From Porphyra umbilicalis (Eukaryota > Rhodophyta > Bangiophyceae > Bangiales > Bangiaceae), in contig KV918787.1 of the NCBI GenBank assembly GCA_002049455.2, positions 1 through 64,000 on the forward strand: 64,000 nucleotides of DNA, read 5' to 3'. Below are positions 35,247-48,386 of the stretch, piece after piece. Positions within the stretch are counted from its first letter, which is position 1; each line of letters opens with the position of its first letter. Made by a program: the position numbers and the translations under genes. Below the pieces are notes generated by a model. That model ran no database searches, had not been told where the DNA came from, and saw only the letters and a list, made by a program, of their open reading frames with translations.

Positions 35247-35543
35247 ACAGTTGGAGATGTTAAATTCTCTTCAGATGTGTTCGGAAGTACCGGGTTCTAC
35301 GTGCCCGTCCCGTCCGTTGCCTTCGGAAAGCTGCGCGATCCGTGGGCCGCCGTGCACATATCGCGCAGGGCATTTCGAAGTGCGCGCATAGCGCGCATGC
35401 CTGCCACCACAGGGAGACGGATGCTCGTCCTTATTTAATCCTAGCCACAAAATCGAGGAATTCACAGTATAGGCCTGCGGCCCGATTTGCTCACGCAGCC
35501 ACATCGATTCTGGAGGTCGGCGTGACGCGAAATTGGGATCGTC

Positions 35544-38500
35544 CCCCAGTGATCATCAGATCAAGTGGAGGAACTCCCCGGGGTTTTCCGGTGGACCGTC
35601 CTGGCCTAATCTCAAACGTAGAATAGGATAGGGCGAGATCTATGACGCAAGACCGTCCTGGAAACAGTCCCGACGGTGGCGTTCGGACTTTACTCAGGAT
35701 CATCCTTGAGATCAAACGAGGATCACTGGAGGACTGTTCCGCAGATGGTCTGCCGGATCAAATGGAAAACCAATCGGCGCCTTGGTCGCTGGGGGGGCTA
35801 GAAATGGCTGGCCAATGAGCGCACGGAAGCCGTCCGCCGGTGGTCCACCTTGAAGGACGTGTCCTTCGTACCTTTCCTATTGTCAGAAAGGGGGATCGGT
35901 GCAGAGTGTCCGAGCCGGGAATCTGCCGAGCAGCTCCAACTCGTGCCGATCAGCAGATCAGAGCCTCCCTCGCCATAGGTACACCGAGGTGAGCCTCCGT
36001 CGATGCTTGAGGTGCCACACCGCAGTCGCATCGTGCCGGCGTCCTGTGCCTTGGGCCCTTGATCTCGCTGTGTATCCCCGTCAAGCAGGTCCTCGGCTGT
36101 GTCCCTCTTGGTGCTCCTACGGGCGTGCGTATGTGGTGTTAACGTGCAGTGTCGGATACTGTGCTACGCACGCACGGGCCCCCTTTCCTGGTCGCCATGA
36201 AGCGTCGCAGGCGCGGTCCACGAGGTTCTGCGTTTTTCAATCTCACTGATGCCAACCTGATTCATTTGCAAGCACATCCCACGAACTCGGATTCTGCAGA
36301 GCATGATGTCGGCCGTGAAGGCGACGGTGGGGGCTCGGCAGGCAGACCCCAACCTGTCCCTGGCAGAGCGATACAACGAGTGTCCCATATAGAGGAGTAC
36401 GACGACGTCGCCCTGTCATCAGAATCTGAGTCAGACGCTTACCCATCAGACGACACAGAATTTTCGAGTGCATCTGAGCACCCTGATGAGGGGTTTGCAA
36501 CACGTCGCGAGTTCTTATGTTTTGGGTACCTCTATGGGCGAGTGCGCGTGACGCTCAGACAGTATGACATGATGCGAGAGGCCGAGAACTCCTTTATCCC
36601 GCAGGAGGAGTGGCCCTCGAGGTGGCGCTTACGGCAGTTGCGCAAGCACATGCTGAAGTCTGCCATACCACTGCGAAGAGAAACGACCACACGTCAGCTT
36701 CCCGTTGGCAAAGGAAGAGCCTTGCGAAAACTGCCTGACGCAATCGTGTAGTACATTCCTTTCTCTGAGCACGTAAAGCGGGACTTTGGAGATCCCAAGA
36801 CGGCTGCTCTTTTCCACAGTAAAGGGGAATCGTGCATGGGCACAGCTGAGCGGCCTGCAGAGTTTTATCAGACTGTAGTGGCCAGGGATCCCGCGAGGTA
36901 TGACGTGAAGAACGTCCTGTTCCGAGACCGGTACAGGTACGACATTGGATGTATCGCCCAGGTCTCTCTTGATGCAGCTACGACGTTCAAGGCCAGTCTG
37001 ATGAGCACAGCCATTGCTTGTGACGGCAGCTTTACCACATCCGCGTCCACGTATGCTCCTCAGAGCGCACTTCGACTTGGGGACTCCCTCGCGCAGTTTT
37101 CTGCTTTTCCTGATTTCGTACCGCCCGCGAGCTGGGCACCATGCTTCGCCGAAGAACGCAGGTTTACTTTGCGGTTCACGCGGTCCGGTGGCGTACTGGT
37201 TCTTGTCGTAAAAGCATCAGCCATGATGGAACAAGACTCGTGGTCCGCCTTAACGTCACTGCGGCCACTGGAGCTCTCGCAGGCGGCAGAGCCCCCGGAG
37301 TGTGCTCTCCCGGAAAAAGACCCCTACACGCTATACGTTTCATTGTACAGTGATGAATTCAACGTATACAAGCGTCGACGGGGAAGCCTGGAGGGCTACT
37401 ATGGAGCATACACATCTCTCAGCATCAAGGATCGTGCGTTTTCTGTTCGTCCACTGTTTTATTTGCCACCAGGAGCCAACCCGGACGCACTTCTCAAGCG
37501 CGTGGTGGAAGACGTACTCCTCGCGAGTAAGGAAGGTGTTCACGTGTATGATGCCTTCAAACAGAAGAACGTGGTAGTTCGTGTGTACCTGTGTCTTGGT
37601 CTCTTTGATTTCCCTATGGCTGCAAAGTTTTCCAACTCGGTCGGTGCCCCAGGCATAGAGCACTGCACTAGCTGCGACATTGTCCAATTAAAGACCACGA
37701 CAGCCCGGAAAGAGCGAGCCATGAGCAGCATGACCTCTTTCGACGTTAAGGACTCTCGCTACTCTCGAACGCAAGAGCGGACTGCGCTTATCATGTCGGC
37801 CGTGAAGAGCTCCCCACAGCTGTCTGCGGAATCCGTGAAGGATGCACTGCTTCTTAATGGCATATCCGATAAGTCCGGCAGCCTGATCATGCGTCTTGAA
37901 GAGGCACGGGGTCCCGGGAGTTTCGACATACACGAGCATGTGGTTGTCGCTCCCTCACACCTACTCTACTACAACATCGGGTCAAACCTTTTAATGGAAG
38001 CCTACGATGCCTTATCAGTAGAGCAACGGGACTCATTCACAAAGCAGATGCGTCGCTGTGCGAAGTATGTCCCGACACACACAGTCTTGTCGTCGTTCGA
38101 ACCCGAAAAGATGGGTGGCACAACCCTCTCAATGTCAGACTATGCAGTGCTGCTCACGGTGGGCCCGACAGTGCTGCAGTACTTGGTCCATCCTACAGCC
38201 ACATCGCCACACGCAGCTGCCGCACTCAGTGCTCTTCATGCCCTCCGACGGTTCTCTACCGCACTTTTCTACCTCCCAACAGCTGCCTCGGATGGCGAGG
38301 AGGCCGTGCGAACGAGGCCCACTGTCGCTGAGCTCCAAGTCTTGGGCGAGAGTCTGATGATTGAACTGCGTCGGCTGGTGCCATTCAACGGGTCGTGGGA
38401 GCGACCATCTGTGCACCATTTACTAGAGCTCTTGTATCGCACTCTCCCGCTGGTGCAGCTCGGGCCGGCCATATGTGAGCTCATTTTTGAGAGGTTTCAC

Positions 38501-39175
38501 CAGCTGGCAAAGCGTGAGGTGAGCCAGAGCAACAGCTGGAACCCCGCTGAGTATGCCATACAGAGGTGGAGAGACACAGAACAGTACTCCCGAGTGCTAT
38601 CTTTGCCAGGGGAATATGGAATACCCGCTTCATGGCTCATTGGTAGACGAGGCAAGAAGCTGAAGGCCGTCTCTTTCTACAGCCTGGGTCCGAGCAGAGG
38701 TAATGCGGCCACAGTCAATGATGCTTGGCGTGCCATGCACGCTGTGCGCACGCCCTTGGGGCCCAAAGAAGATGTTTGGAAGCGCCATGCGCCCAACGCG
38801 GCCCTCACACTTTGGCGGAAGGCCGCGAGGAAAGAGCGATCGATTATTATCGCAGAAGGGTCCACAGTGTCCATTGTTGACATTGTACCTGAAGAGCATG
38901 GCTCTGGAACGAGTGACATGAACCACAAGCGCTTTGGTCGCGTCCACTCCATTGCAACCGTCAACGGCGAGCTTTACGTTGCCTACGAGCCATGGCGTGT
39001 ACCGCACATGGCCTTCTCCGTCTTGGGCGAGCCGGCTGTCGTCGCTGTTGACATAGCAGCTGATGTTACCATTGTCACTGCCAACCGCGTCGGCCAATTG
39101 GCATTTGTGCTTCCTTGTGGGCAGCGTAATGTCATGTTTACCAAACGTTCGGGCTTCCACTTTAAGAGCGGGTGA
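35544..39175 (+). mobile_element. tnp2-type (CMC/Plavaka-like) DNA transposon, copy 1
   Basis: Homology with copy 2 begins abruptly at 35544 with CCCCAGTGATC, so this is probably the element's left end. CCAGTGATC recurs in inverse form at 35718-35729 (GAGGATCACTGG), and GATCAAGTGG/GATCAAATGG words repeat nearby, like subterminal binding sites. The transposase gene fills 36197-39175. Copy 2 supports homology only to 38672, and the right end of the element is unknown. It may lie just after 39175 or far beyond if the JmjC gene is included. Confidence 0.72.
36197..39175 (+). CDS. tnp2-type DDE transposase (one in-frame TAG)
   Basis: This is a single frame from ATG 36197 (MKRRRRGPRGSAFFNLTDAN) to 39175, interrupted once by TAG at 36749-36751, where copy 2 has TCG (Ser). 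The N-terminal part is acidic (DDVALSSESESDAYPSDDTE). The catalytic core starts near 37315: LYVSLYSDEFNVYKRRRGSL (first acidic residue), FSVRPLFYLPPGAN, VVVRVYLCLGLFDFPMAAKF, then the Cys pair EHCTSCD, the block HEHVVVAPSHLLYYNIGSNL, and ELIFERFHQLAKREVSQSN, whose Glu is the candidate last catalytic residue. The 34-kb neighbour at 57.9-63.3 kb shares every block in the same order. The protein would cut and paste the element. The TAG may be real damage, a read-through site or a base error; otherwise the gene is whole. Confidence 0.75.
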
Positions 39176-39429
39176 CTGAGAGTGACTTGTGTATTTTATT
39201 CCTCTCTGACGTGTAAGTCGGACTCGGCTCATGGTTTGAATACTGTACTGCACCAAAAACAACGAGCAAGGGACCTACGATGGACTCAAGAGCAAATGAG
39301 AAGAAGTTGATGAATATTACAACAGCCTATGTGTGACAGCCAGCAACGTGAGGCAGTACGAAGAAACATACATAGTGCGCATGGAGAAGCCAAAAGCAAG
39401 AAGCATAGAAAAAACACAAATGACATCGC
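39176..39429. other. Convergent spacer between transposase and JmjC gene
   Basis: This is 254 bases between two stops facing each other. No inverse of the left terminal word (GATCACTGGGG) is present here, so there is no direct sign that the transposon ends before the JmjC gene. Confidence 0.5.
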
Positions 39430-42400
39430 TCATGCAGAACGTCCCACTGACAGCTTCTTCAATTCATCCACCAAGAGGTACACGGAGCTGTTCGAGAGCC
39501 GCTGCACCACCACCGGAGCATGGCAACCCATGAGACGCCTCTGCGCCGGAGAGCCCTGGCGAAGTCGATCGTGCTCGCTCCCGAACATGGTCGGTGCGCA
39601 GCGCAGACAGCACAGAGGAGCAGTAGGTCCAGCTTCTTCTCCTAGATGTTCAATGCACGTTGGGCAGACAATGACCGAGAGCCAAACGACTACACCGCAA
39701 TGAGGGCAAGAAGTGCCATCAACTGAATAGTCTGTGACTGATCCCGTATCCTCATTGGGCAGCACCAAGGGTGTCCCTTTCGGCTGTATGTAGTTGTGCA
39801 CGATAAACCTCGTCACGCCCATGGACGCCCGCATCATGTCGACGATGGTGGCCTTCCTGCCAGCCCAGTCTGTGTCTGGTCCCATCTCCAAAAAAGCCTG
39901 CGTATCGTCAAGGTACTTTCCTAGGTAAGACACCATGACTTTGATATCCCGTTGGAACTGTTCTGGCTCTAACGCCTGATACATCTTCGCGTCGCCGCAC
40001 CACCATTCCCCAGCAGCGAGCTTCTGGGCCGCAAGCACCAGCAGCTTTTCAAAAGGGATGTGGATAGTCAGCTTATTGCGCCAGTGCTCTGCGTGTTCCA
40101 TCGCGTAAGAAAACCAGGCTGTGCAGGCAGTGTTCACGGCGGAGGCCACGTTTGGTCCCCCATTGAAGCCGCTGTGAAGGACGCCGTAACCCGTGACAAC
40201 AAAGTCCCCAGGCTCCATCTTGTGGAATCCAACTCGTACACCACGAGCCAGAAAGAGCGTTGCAGGCCACAAGCACGCCTTTACAGCAAGAACTGTCCAT
40301 ACGTCACCTCCGGCCGCTTCCAATACAACCGGGTCCATAAGCTCTCGCATCACGCGCTCGGCGAGAGGGCGTTCCGACGCCGGAATGAACCACCAAAACT
40401 TGCTCGCTCCGGCCTGCAAGTACGAACATGATTGCAACAGACTGTCCTCAACGTGCCAGCTAAAGTGAGAGCCTTGGGACCCAACGTACAGCAAGCTCGT
40501 GTTGATACCTTCGTATGTGGACGCTGCACCGAGCATAGTGTGGTGATTCAATGTGCGCGGGTTCTCAAATCGCTGACGAGGCGGGCAAGACTCGGCATGG
40601 GCAGTACACGCAGGGTCGCCGAGACTCCTACTGCACCCATCCTTGTTGTCAGGTGACATGTCTGAAAGATAGTACACATCTACGGGATTAAGGGCTCCAC
40701 CCATCACGGCCCTCTCTTTGCCGGCAGCTGTGACTCGTCGCACCCAAGTCGCGCTGGGATCGTTCACACTGGCAAGGAAGCGCGTCACACCGAAGTCCCG
40801 GTATGCGGCTTGAAGGGCGTTTGCACTCTCACCGACTTTGGCTCTGAGTTCCGCACCTGACATTCGCTTTTCCCTTTCTGATGGCAGCTGTGCCCTCAAG
40901 TCTTTGCGCTTGACGCTCAGGTCAGGCGCAGGCCTACCAGAGAATGAGTCGCACATAATGGTAGGGAACTGCGGAAAGGTTTGAACGCGCACTCTGAGCT
41001 TATCCCCGGAATGTCGCTTTGGCAGTCGACTAGAGACGGGGCGCCTCTCGCGTGCTACTATTCGGAACACGTGCGCGCCAAATTGCCTGAATGATGCACT
41101 ATTCGACCGAATCAGTCCGTGCAATCCCAACTCAGGAACAGAGTGTAACTCAGTCACAGGAACGGAGTAGAAATCCTTGGCACGTCGCGTCGGAGACCCA
41201 AGCACTTGCGCAGACACTTTGTCACCACCGTGTGCCTCCTTGGGCTCCCCGCCCGCATCCATGGCAACTTTCCTGCGAACAGTGTCGTCAGGACCTTCTC
41301 GGGTGGTACCCGGCATGTGCTCGTGGAGTTTCTTTGGCGATGTAGGGTCTTTTCCGGCAGCCCCAGGCTTCTGTATGCTCTGTATCGGTGCGAGCGTTGC
41401 ACTAGGGACTCCTTCAATTCCTCTGGCCAAGTGGTTTGAGGGGAGAGTGCCGGCCAAGACGTTTATGTCATCTGCATCAAAGCTAGACAACTGATCATCG
41501 CGCCGTGAGGCGAGAGCCTCGCACAGCAAAGAAGGATCACCGACAGAAAGACCGACTCCCGCGGCGGCACCACAACATGGTCCTTCGGCAATGCCACGGA
41601 CTCCTGTGCTAGGCCCTTCAACGGGGTTACACCGTGCACCACCATCGTCGCGTCGAACATGAGGTAACATACAAACGGCAGCGACACCGAGAACCTGTGC
41701 ATCGGCGGCATCGCCAGTGAGTCCTCGTGCATGAAAATCACCACTGCCGTCGGCGGCGGCGGGACGACGCCCGTCTTGCTCAAGCACCCGACCACCGTCG
41801 CCGCCTCCGCAGTCTTGGCCATGTCCTTCACCACGAGTGTCGTGTCGATCTCGAGTCACCATACAAACGGCAGCACCACCACGAGCGCGTGCGTGATCGG
41901 CCGCACGAGCGCGTCCTTGTGATTGCACTTCACCACCGCCACCATTGTCGCTTCCGTCTTGTGCAACAACACCAACGAGAGCACCACCACGAGCGCGGGC
42001 GTCAACGGCTGCACCAATGAGTCCCCGTGCCTCCACTCCATCACCGGCACCATGTTCGGGTCCCTCTTGAGCGACAACACCAACCGCAGCACCACCACGA
42101 GCGCGTGCATCAATGGCTGCATGATCAAGTCCGGGTACCTCCACTGCGCAACCGCCATTCTTGTCGTGTACACCTTGGGCAACCACACCATCGGGAGCAC
42201 TAGCACGAGCACGTGCATCAACGCTTGCACAACCACGTCTCCGTGCATCCACTGCATCACCTCCACGATTGCCACGACCATCTTGAGCAACCACACCAAC
42301 TGGAGCACCAGCACGAGCACGTGCATGAACGGCTGCACCACCAGGTCTCTGTACCTCCACTGCAGCACCACCACCATCGTTGCGTCCATCTTGAGCAACC

Positions 42401-43254
42401 ACACCAACGGGAGCACCAGCACGAGCACGTGCATGAATGGCTGCACCACCAAGTCTGGGTACCACCACTCCAACACCACCACCATCGTCGGGTCCATCTT
42501 GAGCAACCACACCAACGGGAGCACCAGCACGAGCGTGTGCATCATCGTGTGCACGACCAAGTCCACGAACCGCCGCTGCACCATCGCAACCATCGTCGCG
42601 TCCATCTTGAGCAACCACATCATCGGCACCACGACCACGAGCGCGTGCACCAATTTGTGCATCACCAAGTCCGCGTACCGCCACTCCACCACCACCACCA
42701 TCGTCGGGTCCATCTTGAGCAACCACACCAATGGGAGCACCAGCACGAGCGTGTGCATCATCGTGTGCACGACCAAGTCCACGAACCGCCGCTGCACCAT
42801 CGCCACCATCGTCGCGTCCATCTTGAGCAACCACATCATTGGCAGCACGACCACGACCGCGTGCACCAATGTGTGCATCACCAAGTCCGCGTACCGCCAC
42901 TCCACCACCACCACCATCGTCGGGTCCATCTTGAGCAACCACACCAATGGGAGCACCAGCACGAGCGTGTGCATCATCGTGTGCACGACCAAGTCCACGA
43001 ACCGCCGCTGCACCATCGCCACCATCGTCGCGTCCATTTTGAGCAACCACACCCACGGGAGCACCAGCAGGAGCACATGCATGAATGGCTGCACCACCAA
43101 GTATGTGTACCGCTTCTGCACCATCGCGACCATCGCCGTGTTCATCATGAGCAACCACATCATCAGCCCCACGAGCACGAGCGTGTGCATCAACGCTTGC
43201 ACCACCAATTCCGCGTACTGCCGCTGCACCATCGCCCACCATCGTCGCGTCCAT
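39430..43254 (-). CDS. JmjC-domain protein (KDM5-like, JmjC + C5HC2-like zinc finger) with 36-residue N-terminal repeats
   Basis: The frame runs from the repeat array (ATG at 43254 is the first in this frame, but the true start may lie beyond the array) to the stop at 39430, about 1,275 residues. The N-terminal half (about 540 residues) is tandem 36-residue repeats (VVAQDGPDDGGGGGVAVRGL). The JmjC core: NHHTMLGAASTYEGINTSLL, FSWHVEDSLLQSCSYLQAGA with Fe ligands His (40453-40455) and Glu (40447-40449), SKFWWFIP, then GDFVVTGYGVLHSGFNGGPN with the third ligand His (40174-40176), NVASAVNTA and HAEHWRNKL...FEKLLVLAAQ. A C-terminal cluster (CPHCGVVVWLSVIVCPTC...LCCLRC) parallels the KDM5 C5HC2 finger. 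All three Fe(II) ligands are present, so 2-oxoglutarate-dependent histone demethylation in the nucleus is plausible. No JmjN, ARID or PHD domain was seen. It is tail to tail with a transposase. Confidence 0.82.
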   Translation of the reverse strand: MDATMVGDGAAAVRGIGGASVDAHARARGADDVVAHDEHGDGRDGAEAVHILGGAAIHACAPAGAPVGVVAQNGRDDGGDGAAAVRGLGRAHDDAHARAGAPIGVVAQDGPDDGGGGGVAVRGLGDAHIGARGRGRAANDVVAQDGRDDGGDGAAAVRGLGRAHDDAHARAGAPIGVVAQDGPDDGGGGGVAVRGLGDAQIGARARGRGADDVVAQDGRDDGCDGAAAVRGLGRAHDDAHARAGAPVGVVAQDGPDDGGGVGVVVPRLGGAAIHARARAGAPVGVVAQDGRNDGGGAAVEVQRPGGAAVHARARAGAPVGVVAQDGRGNRGGDAVDARRRGCASVDARARASAPDGVVAQGVHDKNGGCAVEVPGLDHAAIDARARGGAAVGVVAQEGPEHGAGDGVEARGLIGAAVDARARGGALVGVVAQDGSDNGGGGEVQSQGRARAADHARARGGAAVCMVTRDRHDTRGEGHGQDCGGGDGGRVLEQDGRRPAAADGSGDFHARGLTGDAADAQVLGVAAVCMLPHVRRDDGGARCNPVEGPSTGVRGIAEGPCCGAAAGVGLSVGDPSLLCEALASRRDDQLSSFDADDINVLAGTLPSNHLARGIEGVPSATLAPIQSIQKPGAAGKDPTSPKKLHEHMPGTTREGPDDTVRRKVAMDAGGEPKEAHGGDKVSAQVLGSPTRRAKDFYSVPVTELHSVPELGLHGLIRSNSASFRQFGAHVFRIVARERRPVSSRLPKRHSGDKLRVRVQTFPQFPTIMCDSFSGRPAPDLSVKRKDLRAQLPSEREKRMSGAELRAKVGESANALQAAYRDFGVTRFLASVNDPSATWVRRVTAAGKERAVMGGALNPVDVYYLSDMSPDNKDGCSRSLGDPACTAHAESCPPRQRFENPRTLNHHTMLGAASTYEGINTSLLYVGSQGSHFSWHVEDSLLQSCSYLQAGASKFWWFIPASERPLAERVMRELMDPVVLEAAGGDVWTVLAVKACLWPATLFLARGVRVGFHKMEPGDFVVTGYGVLHSGFNGGPNVASAVNTACTAWFSYAMEHAEHWRNKLTIHIPFEKLLVLAAQKLAAGEWWCGDAKMYQALEPEQFQRDIKVMVSYLGKYLDDTQAFLEMGPDTDWAGRKATIVDMMRASMGVTRFIVHNYIQPKGTPLVLPNEDTGSVTDYSVDGTSCPHCGVVVWLSVIVCPTCIEHLGEEAGPTAPLCCLRCAPTMFGSEHDRLRQGSPAQRRLMGCHAPVVVQRLSNSSVYLLVDELKKLSVGRSA

Positions 43255-43505
43255 CTTGAGCAACCCACATCATCGGCACCACGACCACGAGCGCGTGCAC
43301 CAATTTGTGCATCACCAAGTCCGCGTACCGCCACTCCACCACCACCACCATCGTCGGTCCATCTTGAGCAACCCACCAACGGGAGCACCAGCACGAGCGT
43401 GTGCATCATCGCGTGCACGACCAAGTCCACGCAACCGCCGCTGCACCATCGCCACCATTGTCGCGTTCATCTTGAGAACCACACCAACGGGAGCACCAGC
43501 ACGAG
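41638..43505. repeat. 108-bp coding minisatellite (JmjC N-terminus), about 17 units
   Basis: Markers such as ACCATCGTCGGGTCCATCTT and TGAGCAAC recur at 42481, 42589, 42697, 42805, 42913 and 43021, i.e. every 108 bases. Older, diverged units extend back to about 41638. Between 42481 and about 43130 two unit types alternate, giving a 216-base higher-order repeat copied about three times, so that part is the youngest. 108 is divisible by three, so the JmjC frame stays open; the other frames stay open too, making large false ORFs. At its right end units lose register and meet an unresolved base at 43506. Confidence 0.9.
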
Positions 43506-44379: not shown

Positions 44380-44960
44380 GGCGGGAGGCAGGCCAACGAC
44401 CGCGGGGCGACCGACGGAGGGCAGGGGGCAGACCAATACCAGTGGGGTCGCCAGCGGCGGGTGGAGGGCACGCCAAAGACCGCGGGGCGGCCGGCGGCCG
44501 CCAGGGGGCAAGCCAACTACCGCAGGGTGGCTGACGGTGGGCGGGGGGCGCGACAACGACCGCGGGTCGGCCGAGAGCGGGCGGGGGGGAAGCCAACGAC
44601 CGCGGGGGGGCCGACGGTGGGCGGGGGGCACGACAACGACCGCGGGTCGGCCGAGAGCGGGCGGGAGGGAGGCCGATGACCGCGGGGTGGCCGACGGCGG
44701 GCGGGGGGCACGCCCACGACCGCGGGGTGGCTGACGGCGGGCGGTGGGGAAGACGACGACGGCGGGGTGGCTGACGGCGGGCGGAGGGCACGCCCACGAA
44801 CGCCAGGTGGCCGACGGAAGGAGGGGGGCAAGAAGACTATGGCGGGGTGACTGATGACGGGCGGTGTGAAGGCCGACACCAGCGTGGGTGCCGGCGGCGG
44901 ACGGGGGGCTGGCCCACGCGCAGGTTGGCCGGTGGCAGGTAGGGGCCCGGCCGGCACGCG
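44380..44960. repeat. 40-bp GC-rich minisatellite
   Basis: About 13 imperfect units such as GACCGCGGGGTGGCCGACGG plus CGGGCGGGGGGCACGCCCAC. Two marker words (CGACAACGAC) lie 80 bases apart, i.e. two units. Because 40 is not a multiple of three, any ORF through it is accidental. It borders the left end of transposon copy 2. Confidence 0.85.
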
Positions 44961-45255: not shown

Positions 45256-48200
45256 CCCCAGTGATCCTCAGATCAAGTGGAAGAACTCCCCGGGGTTCTC
45301 CGGTGGACCGTCCTGGCCTAATCTCAAACTTAGAATAGGATAGGGCGAGATCAATGACGCAAGACCGTCCTGGAAACAGTCCCGACGGTGGCGTTCGGAC
45401 TTTACTCAGGATCATCCTTGAGATCAAACGAGGATCACTGGAGGACTGTTCCGCAGATGGTCTGCCGGATCAAATGGAAAACCAATCGGCGCCTTGGTCG
45501 CTGGGGGGGCTAGAAATGGCTGGCCAATGAGCGCACGGAGGCCGTCCGCCGGTGGTCCACCCTGAGGGACGTGTCCTTCGTACCTTTCCTATTGTCAGAA
45601 AGGGGGATCGGTGCAGAGTGTCTGAGCCGAGAATTTGCCGAGCAGCTCCAACTCGTGCCAATCAGCAAACCAGAGCCTCCAGCGCCATAGGTACACCGAG
45701 GTGAGCCTCCGTCGATGCTTGAGGTGCCACACTGCAGTCGCATCGTGCCGGCGTCCTGTGCCTTGAGCCCTTGATCTCGCTGTGTATCCCCGTCAAACAG
45801 GTCCTCGGCTGTGTCCCTCTTGGTGCTCCCACGGGCGTGCGTATGCGGTGTTAACGTGCAGTGTCGGATACTGTGCTACGCACGCACGGGCCCCCTTTTC
45901 TGGTCGCCATGAAGCGTCGCAGGCGCGGTTCACGAGGTTCTGCGTTTTTCAATCTCACTGATGCCAACCTGATTCATTTGCAAGCACATCCCACGAACTC
46001 GGATTCTGCAGAGCATGATGTCGGCCGTGAAGGCGACGATGGGGGCTCGGCAGGCAGACCCCAACCTGTCCCTGGCAGAGCGATACCACGAGCGTCCGAT
46101 TTAGAGGAATACGACGACGTCGCCCTGTCATCAGAATCTAAGTCAGACGCTTACCCATCAGACGACACAGAAGTTTTGAGTGCATCTGAGCACCCTGATG
46201 AGGGGTTTGCAACACGTCGCGAGTTCTTATGTTTTGGATACCTCTATGGGCGAGTGCGCGTGACGCTCAGACAGTATGACATGATGCGAGAGGCCGAGAA
46301 CTCCTTTATCCTGCAGGAGAAGTGGCCCTCAAGGTGGCGCTTACGGTAGTTGCGCAAGCACATGCTGAAATCTGCCATACCACTGCGAAGAGAAACGACC
46401 ACACGTCAGCTTCTCGTTGGCAAAGGAAGAGCCTTGCAAAAAATGCCCGACGCAGTCGTGTCGTACATTCCTTTCTCTGAGCACGTAAAGCGGAACTTTG
46501 GAGATCCCAAGACGGCTGCGCTTTTCCACAGTAAAGGGGAATCGTGCATGGGCACAGCTGAGCGGTCTGCAGAGTTTTATCAGACTGTAGTGGCCAGGGA
46601 TCCCGCGAGGTATGACGTGAAGAATGTTCCGTTTCGAGACCGGTACAGGTAGGACATTGGATGTATCGCCCAGGTCTCTCTTGATACAGCTACGACGTTC
46701 AAGGCCATTCTGTTGAGCACAGCCACTGCTTGTGACGGCAGCTTCACCACGTCCGCGTCCACGTATGCTCTCTAGAGCGCACTTCGACTTGGGGACTCCC
46801 TCGCGCAGTTTTCTGCTTTTCCTGATTTCGTACCGCCCGCGAACTGGGCACCATGCTTTACCGAAGAACGCAGGTATACTTTGCGGTTCACGCGGTCCGG
46901 TGGCGTACTGGTTCTTGCCGTGAGGGCATCAGCCATGATGGAGCAAGACTCGTGGTCCGCCTTAACGTCACTGCGGCCACTGGAGCTCTCGCAGGCGGCA
47001 GAGCCCCCTGAGTGTGCTCTCCCGCAAAAAAGACCCCTACATGCTGTACGTTTCATTGTACGGTGATGACTTCAACGTATACAAGCGTCGACGGGGAACC
47101 CTGGTGGGCTACTATGGAGCATACACATCTCTAAGCATCAAGGATCGTGCGTTTTCTGTTCGTCCACTGTTTTATTCGCCACCAGGAGCCAACCCGGACG
47201 CACTGTTCAAGCGCGTGGTGGAAGACGTACTCCTCACGAGCAGGGAAGGTGTTCACGTGTATGATGACTTCAAACAGCAGAACGTGGTAGTTCGTGTGTA
47301 CCTGTATTTTGGTCTCTTTGATTCTCCTATGGCTGCAAAGTTTTCCAACTCGGTCGGTGCCCCAGGCATAGAGCACTGCACTAGCTGCGGCATTGTCCAA
47401 TTGGAGACCAACACAGCTAGGAAAGAGCGAGCCATGAGCAGCACGACCTCTTTTGACGTTAAGGACTCTCGTTACTCTCTAACGCAAGAGCGGACTGCGC
47501 TTATCATGTCGGCCGTGAAGAGCTCCCCACAGCTGTCTGCGGAATCCGTGAAGGATGCACTGCGTCTTCATGGCATATCCGATAAGTCCGGCAGCCTGAT
47601 CATGCGTCTTGAAGAGGCACGGGGTCCCGGGAGTTTCGACATACACGAGCATGTGGTTGTCGCTTCCTCACACCTACTCTACTACAACATCGGGTCAAAC
47701 CTTTTAATGGAAACTTAGGATGCCTTATCAGTAGAGCAACGGGACTCATTCACAAAGCAGATGCGTCTCAGTGCAAAGTATGTCCCGACGCACACAGTCC
47801 TGTCGTCGTTCGATCCCGAAAAGATGGGTGGCAAAACCCTCTCGATGTCAGACTATGGAGTGCTGCTCACGATGGGCCCGACTGTGCTGCAGTAATTGGT
47901 CCATCCTACAGCCACATCGCCACACGCAGTTGCCGCTCTCAGTGCTCTTCATGCCCTCTGACGGTTCTTTACCGCACTTTTCTACCTCCCAACAGCTGCC
48001 TCGGATGGCGAGGAGGCCGTGCGAACGAGGCCCACTGTCGCTGAGCTCCAAGTCTTGAGCGAGAGTCTGATGATTGAACTGCGTCGGCTGGTGCCATTCA
48101 ACGGGTCCTGTGAGCGACCATCTGTGCACCGTTTACTATAGCTCTTGTATCACACTCTCCCGCTGGTGCAGCTTGGGCCGGCCATATGTGAGCTCATTTT

Positions 48201-48386
48201 TGAGAGGTTTCCTCAGCTGGCAAAGCGTGAGGTGAGCCAGAGCAACAGCTGGAACCCCGCTGAGTAAGCCATACAGAGGTGGAGAGACACAGAACAGTTC
48301 TCCCGAGTGCTATCTTTTCCAGACGAATATGGAATACCCGCTTCATGGCTCATTGAAAGACGAAGCAAGCAGCTGAAGGCCGTCTC
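45256..48386 (+). mobile_element. tnp2-type DNA transposon, copy 2 (decayed, 3'-truncated)
   Basis: It is colinear with 35544-38672 of copy 1, with only a few percent divergence by eye. It starts at CCCCAGTGATC, directly after unrelated sequence, and has the same inverted word at 45430-45441. It ends inside the transposase gene at 48386, where a GC-rich minisatellite begins, so the last 160-170 codons are lost. Several in-frame stops (for example near 46347, 46650 and 47718) and one insertion in an A run near 47030 mark it as dead. Confidence 0.85.
45909..48386 (+). pseudogene. Transposase pseudogene of tnp2-type copy 2
   Basis: It starts at ATG 45909 (MKRRRRGSRGSAFFNL), identical in sense to copy 1. 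The stretch 47014-47718 is the longest intact piece and carries the SDEF-region equivalent (LYVSLYGDDFNVYKRRRGTL), FYSPPGANP and EHCTSCG. It retains TCG at the site where copy 1 has TAG, showing that Ser is ancestral there. The 3' end is missing. Confidence 0.85.

Follow-up and report, generated by a model that had tools for sequence, protein, structure and literature searches.

Is a histone-demethylase-like gene that lies beside a transposase gene merely a neighbour of the transposon, or is it one of the transposon's own genes? This question is raised by the window analysed here, bases 1-64000 of contig C27 (KV918787.1) of the genome of the red alga Porphyra umbilicalis (83.8 Mb in 665 contigs). 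A first-pass annotation, made from the letters alone, had described a JmjC gene in this window lying tail to tail with a tnp2-type transposase gene, and had proposed that the transposon may carry the JmjC gene as cargo. The coordinates of the open reading frames (ORFs) agree with that description: the tnp2-like ORF occupies 36752-39175 on the plus strand and the JmjC ORF 39430-43269 on the minus strand, leaving the 254 bases that had been claimed between them. The lower GC content seen around the JmjC gene, relative to the region at 1-31 kb, is also borne out, with values per kb of 0.53-0.60 at 36-44 kb against more than 0.60 in 27 of the 31 bins at 1-31 kb and 0.54-0.59 in the other four; the GC content reported for Bangiales is high, at 64-68% (PMC7423979). 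Our answer is that the JmjC gene is, with near certainty, cargo inside the ends of a transposon, and that an anti-silencing function is likely for the protein it encodes.

The JmjC gene and the transposon ends

Protein searches of the genome with the JmjC and transposase queries, which the first-pass annotation had suggested, each returned 60 places (genome-wide counts here and below are lower bounds). A transposase lies within 3 kb of 48 of the 60 JmjC places, and all 48 pairs are convergent. In Pfam profile searches, JmjC matches exceed the cut-off at 105 places, a few of them host-like, so that the gene is far from being single-copy, and tnp2 is matched at 136 places, which fall into two classes of 69 and 67 by the part of the model that is matched. 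A tnp2 place lies within 8 kb of 60 of the 105 JmjC places, where about 2.7 would be expected by chance, and the two genes are tail to tail in every one of these 60. The linkage divides the tnp2 classes sharply: a JmjC gene is found within 8 kb of 60 of the 69 places of one class, versus none of the 67 places of the other. The latter (for example C181:127777-128094) represent a different transposon family.

The left end of the element was placed by comparing sister copies. It begins CACAGGGAGACGG... at window position 35408, rather than at 35544 as first annotated, and is common to the copies of subfamily A, the flanks of which differ; other subfamilies start with CACAGCG or CACGGCG and have the same TTAATCC block. 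The 34-base left end occurs at 97 genome places with up to 2 mismatches, while the reversed pattern occurs at none. An inward-facing left end stands 4.4-5.6 kb from 59 of the 105 JmjC places and within 25 kb of 70, against 2 in the control. A search for right ends using the left-end sequence gave 85 matches, compared with 28 and 30 in controls, and no right end was recognised among them. The right end was instead obtained from two subfamily-B copies, the likeness of which stops after ...CCACGCAGTG, and a search with the last 350 bases of these two copies matched 42 places and revealed right ends for the A, B and C subfamilies.

Both flanks were compared in the 21 copies for which both ends were found, a set that does not include the window copy, the right end of which is missing. 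The JmjC gene has its place between the two ends in all 21, as does a third gene described below (for both genes, presence was judged by comparing coordinates by eye), and a transposase place lies within the ends in 19, there being none among the matches for C12 and C25. A perfect 2-bp target duplication borders 18 of the 21 copies, the exceptions being C16, C101 and C157, where chance agreement would be about 0.08 per copy. The elements span 14.0-17.7 kb in 18 cases; the other three, of 19.7, 23.4 and 28.8 kb, presumably hold insertions. An element end between 39176 and 39429, that is, between the transposase and the JmjC gene, was considered and rejected, being seen in none of the 21 copies, in all of which the shared right end lies beyond the JmjC gene. 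We also searched with the joined flanks of one copy for an empty site; beyond the copy itself this gave only partial, repeat-borne matches, which are not used as evidence. Two of the copies, C16:265649-281720 and C391:44618-60361, have an identical left flank and different right flanks, as if copies had recombined, or as if a duplication had been followed by rearrangement.

These termini and the transposase place the locus in the CACTA-like (CMC/CMCT) family of DNA transposons. The termini are of the form 5'-CAC..GTG-3', the left CAC being followed by AG in 19 of 21 copies and by GG in two (C391 and C16), and the right end reading CAGTG in all 21. None of the 21 copies shows the 3-bp target duplication of EnSpm in the narrow sense; for the CMCT group, target duplications are given as 2-5 bp (PMC12730594). 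In all 7 transposase rows compared, D201, D286 and C305/C308 are unchanged, making them candidates for catalytic Asp residues and a C(2)C motif; the invariant His residues include no H(3-4)H. A Pfam scan of the window proteins found no MULE family, and Transposase_21 was found instead.

The order of the gene set is seen in the copy at C27:392292-407874, which in 15583 bases holds the transposase (a 986-amino-acid frame, plus strand), the JmjC gene (a 2504-amino-acid frame, minus strand), GC-rich repeats and the third gene (a 272-amino-acid frame, plus strand). This third gene (L035; C27:406008-406769) lies near the right end of the element and occurs at at least 152 genome places; its product has no significant match in Pfam family and PDB structure searches. 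Using 130 of these places, we find that 71 of the 105 JmjC places have the third gene less than 25 kb away, in the side and strand position expected of it, against 5 and 4 in controls. It is so placed in 7 of the 9 members of a distant JmjC set (C212, C164, C91, C99, C31, C90, C247, C173 and C194), four of which were compared with the window protein and show 36-39% identity to it. The transposase of the C164 copy is 45% identical to that of the window and holds the same facing position toward its JmjC gene, and on C228 a JmjC gene with a product 43% identical to that of the window likewise has a tnp2 partner. The trio is thus found in distant JmjC lineages and is not an accident of one young subfamily.

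Conservation, descent and predicted role of the JmjC protein

Between subfamilies, the JmjC gene is kept by purifying selection. By the Nei-Gojobori method, dN/dS (the ratio of nonsynonymous to synonymous substitution) is 0.13-0.22 for the conserved 600-amino-acid part across seven between-subfamily pairs (dS 0.39 and dN 0.087 for B/C), and 0.11-0.16 for the transposase in five such pairs (dS 0.36 for B/C); the distant subfamilies are near saturation, B/C and E/F being the safe pairs. Within subfamilies the ratios, based on few changes, are 0.5-1.3 for JmjC and 0.7-1.2 for the transposase, as is expected of copies after insertion. The trees of the two proteins have the same unrooted topology for subfamilies A-G, in which some forks have 86-95% bootstrap and subfamily D is represented by the transposase of L021 and the JmjC of L022, two copies of one subfamily.

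The JmjC proteins of the elements form one clade, apart from three host-like JmjC proteins. Of these, C30 groups with KDM4D, C263 joins JMJ13 and JMJ14 in an unresolved fork, and C344 stands at the base of that group, with long branches that make the deep joins unsure. The nearest host JmjC by pairwise score is that of C344 (32% identity over 226 amino acids, E = 2.5e-32). As host-like JmjC genes occur outside the elements and C344 is nearest, an ancient host origin is plausible, with the C344 lineage as a candidate source. The C344 gene itself (L074; C344:4461-5660) encodes a host-like JmjC protein with the same Ser-for-Asn substitution as the element proteins, to which we return below. A link to viruses was also considered and rejected, no relative of the transposase or of the JmjC protein being confirmed among the 387 and 33 pattern stretches tested in IMG/VR.

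The existence of these host-like genes, and the nearness of C344 in particular, could be taken to favour the explanation that the JmjC gene of the window is a neighbouring host gene, or a captured passenger with no role in the element. Against this stand the presence of the gene inside all 21 elements with both ends, purifying selection that resembles that on the transposase, and an arrangement retained down to 36-45% identity. Given the element ends, the dN/dS values, the convergent linkage and the split between the tnp2 classes, we reject this explanation as exceedingly improbable.

What, then, might the protein do as a gene product of the transposon? The JmjC frame of the window has no stop in 600 codons, compared with 14-24 in the other five frames, and its ORF matches JmjC in Pfam at E = 1.3e-14; a Pfam JmjC match is also present in all 8 rows of the alignment set. 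The only oxygenase family with a significant score is JmjC, not TET/JBP. The Fe-binding triad HxE...H is intact in the window protein and in 13 of 14 element rows. A conserved Lys, the residue for 2-oxoglutarate binding in KDM4 enzymes, is likewise kept in 13 of 14, as is the Asp that follows HxE. Among the 58 sequences listed, the best relative of solved structure is Arabidopsis JMJ13, followed by KDM4D, KDM5A and JMJ14, and KDM5B is also present. Structure prediction from the single window sequence was unusable (mean predicted local distance difference test score, pLDDT, of 32).

We consider it moderately probable that this CACTA-like family, with tnp2, JmjC and the third gene, encodes an active demethylase that removes repressive methylation from the chromatin of the element. 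Under this proposal, the JmjC protein would work as a histone lysine demethylase of the Fe(II)/2-oxoglutarate type, stripping repressive histone methylation from the element's own chromatin, so that the transposase gene could stay expressed. The purifying selection and the largely intact active site fit such a predicted escape from heterochromatin. H3K27me3 would be the first candidate among the marks, because JMJ13 is an H3K27me3 demethylase (PMC6428840) and because, in the red alga Cyanidioschyzon merolae, roughly half of the repetitive elements are covered by it (PMC5405695). H3K9 methylation would be the second, since H3K9me3 lies within the same ARKS motif (PMC6428840). Candidates for aiming the eraser are the third protein and the N-terminal repeat region of the JmjC protein. 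A fuller version of the proposal, in which an old red-algal CACTA-like lineage counts a histone demethylase among its core genes, brings this eraser to its own DNA by means of the third protein or the N-terminal repeats, and so keeps its copies free of Polycomb-type H3K27me3 silencing, is one that we put forward tentatively, as possible rather than probable.

Several observations weigh against an element-serving demethylase. Nine of the 69 tnp2 places of the JmjC-linked class have no JmjC gene within 8 kb, the genes of many copies contain stops, the window copy included, and the distant lineage H joins at different places in the transposase and JmjC trees. An Fe-ligand His is lost in the C98 copy, and the conserved Lys is Gln in C212. 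The first-pass annotation had claimed a JmjC domain with three Fe ligands and a C5HC2-like finger; the ligands H, E and H are present, but the finger does not reach significance, zf-C5HC2 being matched in 1 of 8 rows at E = 1.6, with its Cys pairs conserved. JmjN was reported in none of the 8 rows at E up to 10 in the Pfam search, in which HMMER filters drop weak matches. Finally, all 14 element rows have Ser where JMJ13, JMJ14 and KDM4D have Asn beside the active site, although Ser is found in the host protein of C344 as well.

There are two further explanations to be weighed here. JmjC oxygenases with non-histone substrates exist, and the first explanation is that chromatin is not the target of the JmjC protein, which would instead assist in transposition or act on some non-histone protein, for example the transposase or the third protein. 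The Asn-to-Ser change and the want of a recognisable JmjN or a significant C5HC2 finger would suit this explanation. We nevertheless think it unlikely, given that the best solved relatives are histone lysine demethylases and that nearly all element rows keep the Asp following HxE; the equivalent residue of JMJ13, Asp296, forms a bond with H3S28 and is important for activity (PMC6428840). The second is that the protein works in trans, on the chromatin of the host, where it might remove active marks such as H3K4me3 and so repress, for instance, competing elements or defence genes. KDM5A, KDM5B and JMJ14, which are also among the solved relatives, act on H3K4. Nothing in the data points to trans targets, and a benefit to the element itself would explain the linkage more simply, making this explanation quite improbable. 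Our preference stays with a demethylase acting on the chromatin of its own element.

The copy in the window

The features of the window copy are collected in Table 1. Its transposase frame opens at 36197 and is interrupted by a single in-frame stop, which is absent from the sister copies L009, L010 and L011, in which the frame is open for 1010 codons. The Transposase_21 match on the window ORF (E = 1.6e-6, 27.9 bits) is slightly below the Pfam cut-off of 28.6; in the genome-wide profile search the same place scores 30.2 bits, over the cut-off, and other copies score up to 37.6.

Table 1. Positions of element features within the 64,000-base window.
Feature	Position	Strand	Remark
Left terminus of element, CACAGGGAGACGGATGCTCGTCCTTATTTAATCC	35408..35441	+	Common to sister copies with differing flanks
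Left part of CACTA-like element, subfamily A; right part absent behind N	35408..43505	+	98.4% identity over 8100 bases to C98 copy
tnp2-type transposase gene, one in-frame stop at 36749-36751	36197..39175	+	Start codon picked by eye
JmjC gene, stop-to-stop frame, 5' end undefined in window copy	39430..43269	-	
JmjC protein part conserved across subfamilies, 600 amino acids	39433..41232	-	58-98% identity, 8-row alignment
JmjC catalytic domain PF02373, triad HxE...H	40132..40491	-	Pfam
Tandem array, 108-bp unit, 15.4 copies	41839..43505	-	In JmjC frame up to 43269
Single N (gap)	43506	.	Likeness to other copies stops here
Second, truncated copy of the same element	45256..48386	+	95.5% identity over 3131 bases

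The first-pass annotation had seen no right terminus of the transposon before the JmjC gene, and indeed the window does not contain the right end, the copy being cut at the N inside the 108-bp array. This N is probably an assembly join, and the sequence beyond it may not be the genuine neighbour. Frames other than that of JmjC are also long across the array, and the N-terminal, repeat-rich stretch of that frame is best described as putative coding sequence. The second copy is without the first 136 bases of the left end and breaks off midway through the transposase gene. A tandem array of about 13 copies of a 40-bp GC-rich unit lies between this copy and the first, at 44380-44909. Elsewhere in the genome, the phycobilisome linker family PF00427 has 4 matches on contig C665 (3 of them in one 893-amino-acid frame), which suggests a plastid genome, and 8 on seven other contigs; among 14 control genomes the family was matched in a cyanobacterium alone, and linkers encoded off the plastid contig are indicative of a red alga.

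Comparison with known systems

The JmjC protein of the element has the core HxE...H in common with JMJ13, KDM4D, KDM5A and JMJ14, which are host enzymes, and differs from JMJ13, KDM4D and JMJ14 at the Ser-for-Asn position. Mobile DNA with many KDM4-like JmjC genes is described for the endogenised giant viruses of Amoebidium (PMC11244446), which are virus insertions and not a transposase-bearing transposon. In the open-access literature we found no JmjC-carrying DNA transposon, subscription papers, preprints and Repbase being beyond reach, so that an earlier database entry is possible. The word JmjC is absent from a survey of fungal TET/JBP transposons (PMC12730594), and neither JmjC nor demethylase occurs in the main text of a brown-alga survey (PMC12477816).

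Transposons with genes for TET/JBP oxygenases, SET methyltransferases or sequence-specific anti-silencing proteins are already known (PMC12730594). The anti-silencing protein of plant Vandal elements is named VANC. These MuDR elements, as summarised in PMC12730594, have in common with our proposal an anti-silencing protein encoded by the element itself, but unlike the red-algal element they have neither a JmjC enzyme nor a tnp2 transposase. In Phytophthora, HarbingerS and MuDR elements carry a SET histone methyltransferase (described in PMC12730594), which is, as here, a histone-modifying gene of a transposon; the SET protein is a methylation writer accompanied by other transposase families, whereas the red-algal JmjC protein is a predicted eraser. 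Another parallel is that of the fungal TET/JBP transposons, for which the 2025 survey gives 11 lineages, EnSpm among them (PMC12730594). In these (Kyakuja, Dileera, Zisupton, EnSpm, ESTA, Plavaka, Helitron and others), a DNA transposon is likewise combined with an Fe(II)/2-oxoglutarate oxygenase proposed to act against epigenetic silencing, and some are EnSpm elements with CAC..GTG termini, as is the red-algal element (PMC12730594). The fungal enzymes, of the TET/JBP family, act on DNA methylation (PMC12730594), whereas the red-algal element has a JmjC protein of histone-demethylase type.

What is new, within the open-access literature, is a DNA transposon family in which a JmjC gene resembling a histone-methylation eraser belongs to the regular gene set. 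Most of the JmjC matches in this genome belong to transposons rather than to host regulators, as the counts of JmjC places with the third gene in position and with a tnp2 match indicate. If the predicted role is correct, the arms race between transposons and their hosts would also run through the removal of histone marks, and this JmjC transposon lineage would be the histone-level counterpart of the TET/JBP transposons.

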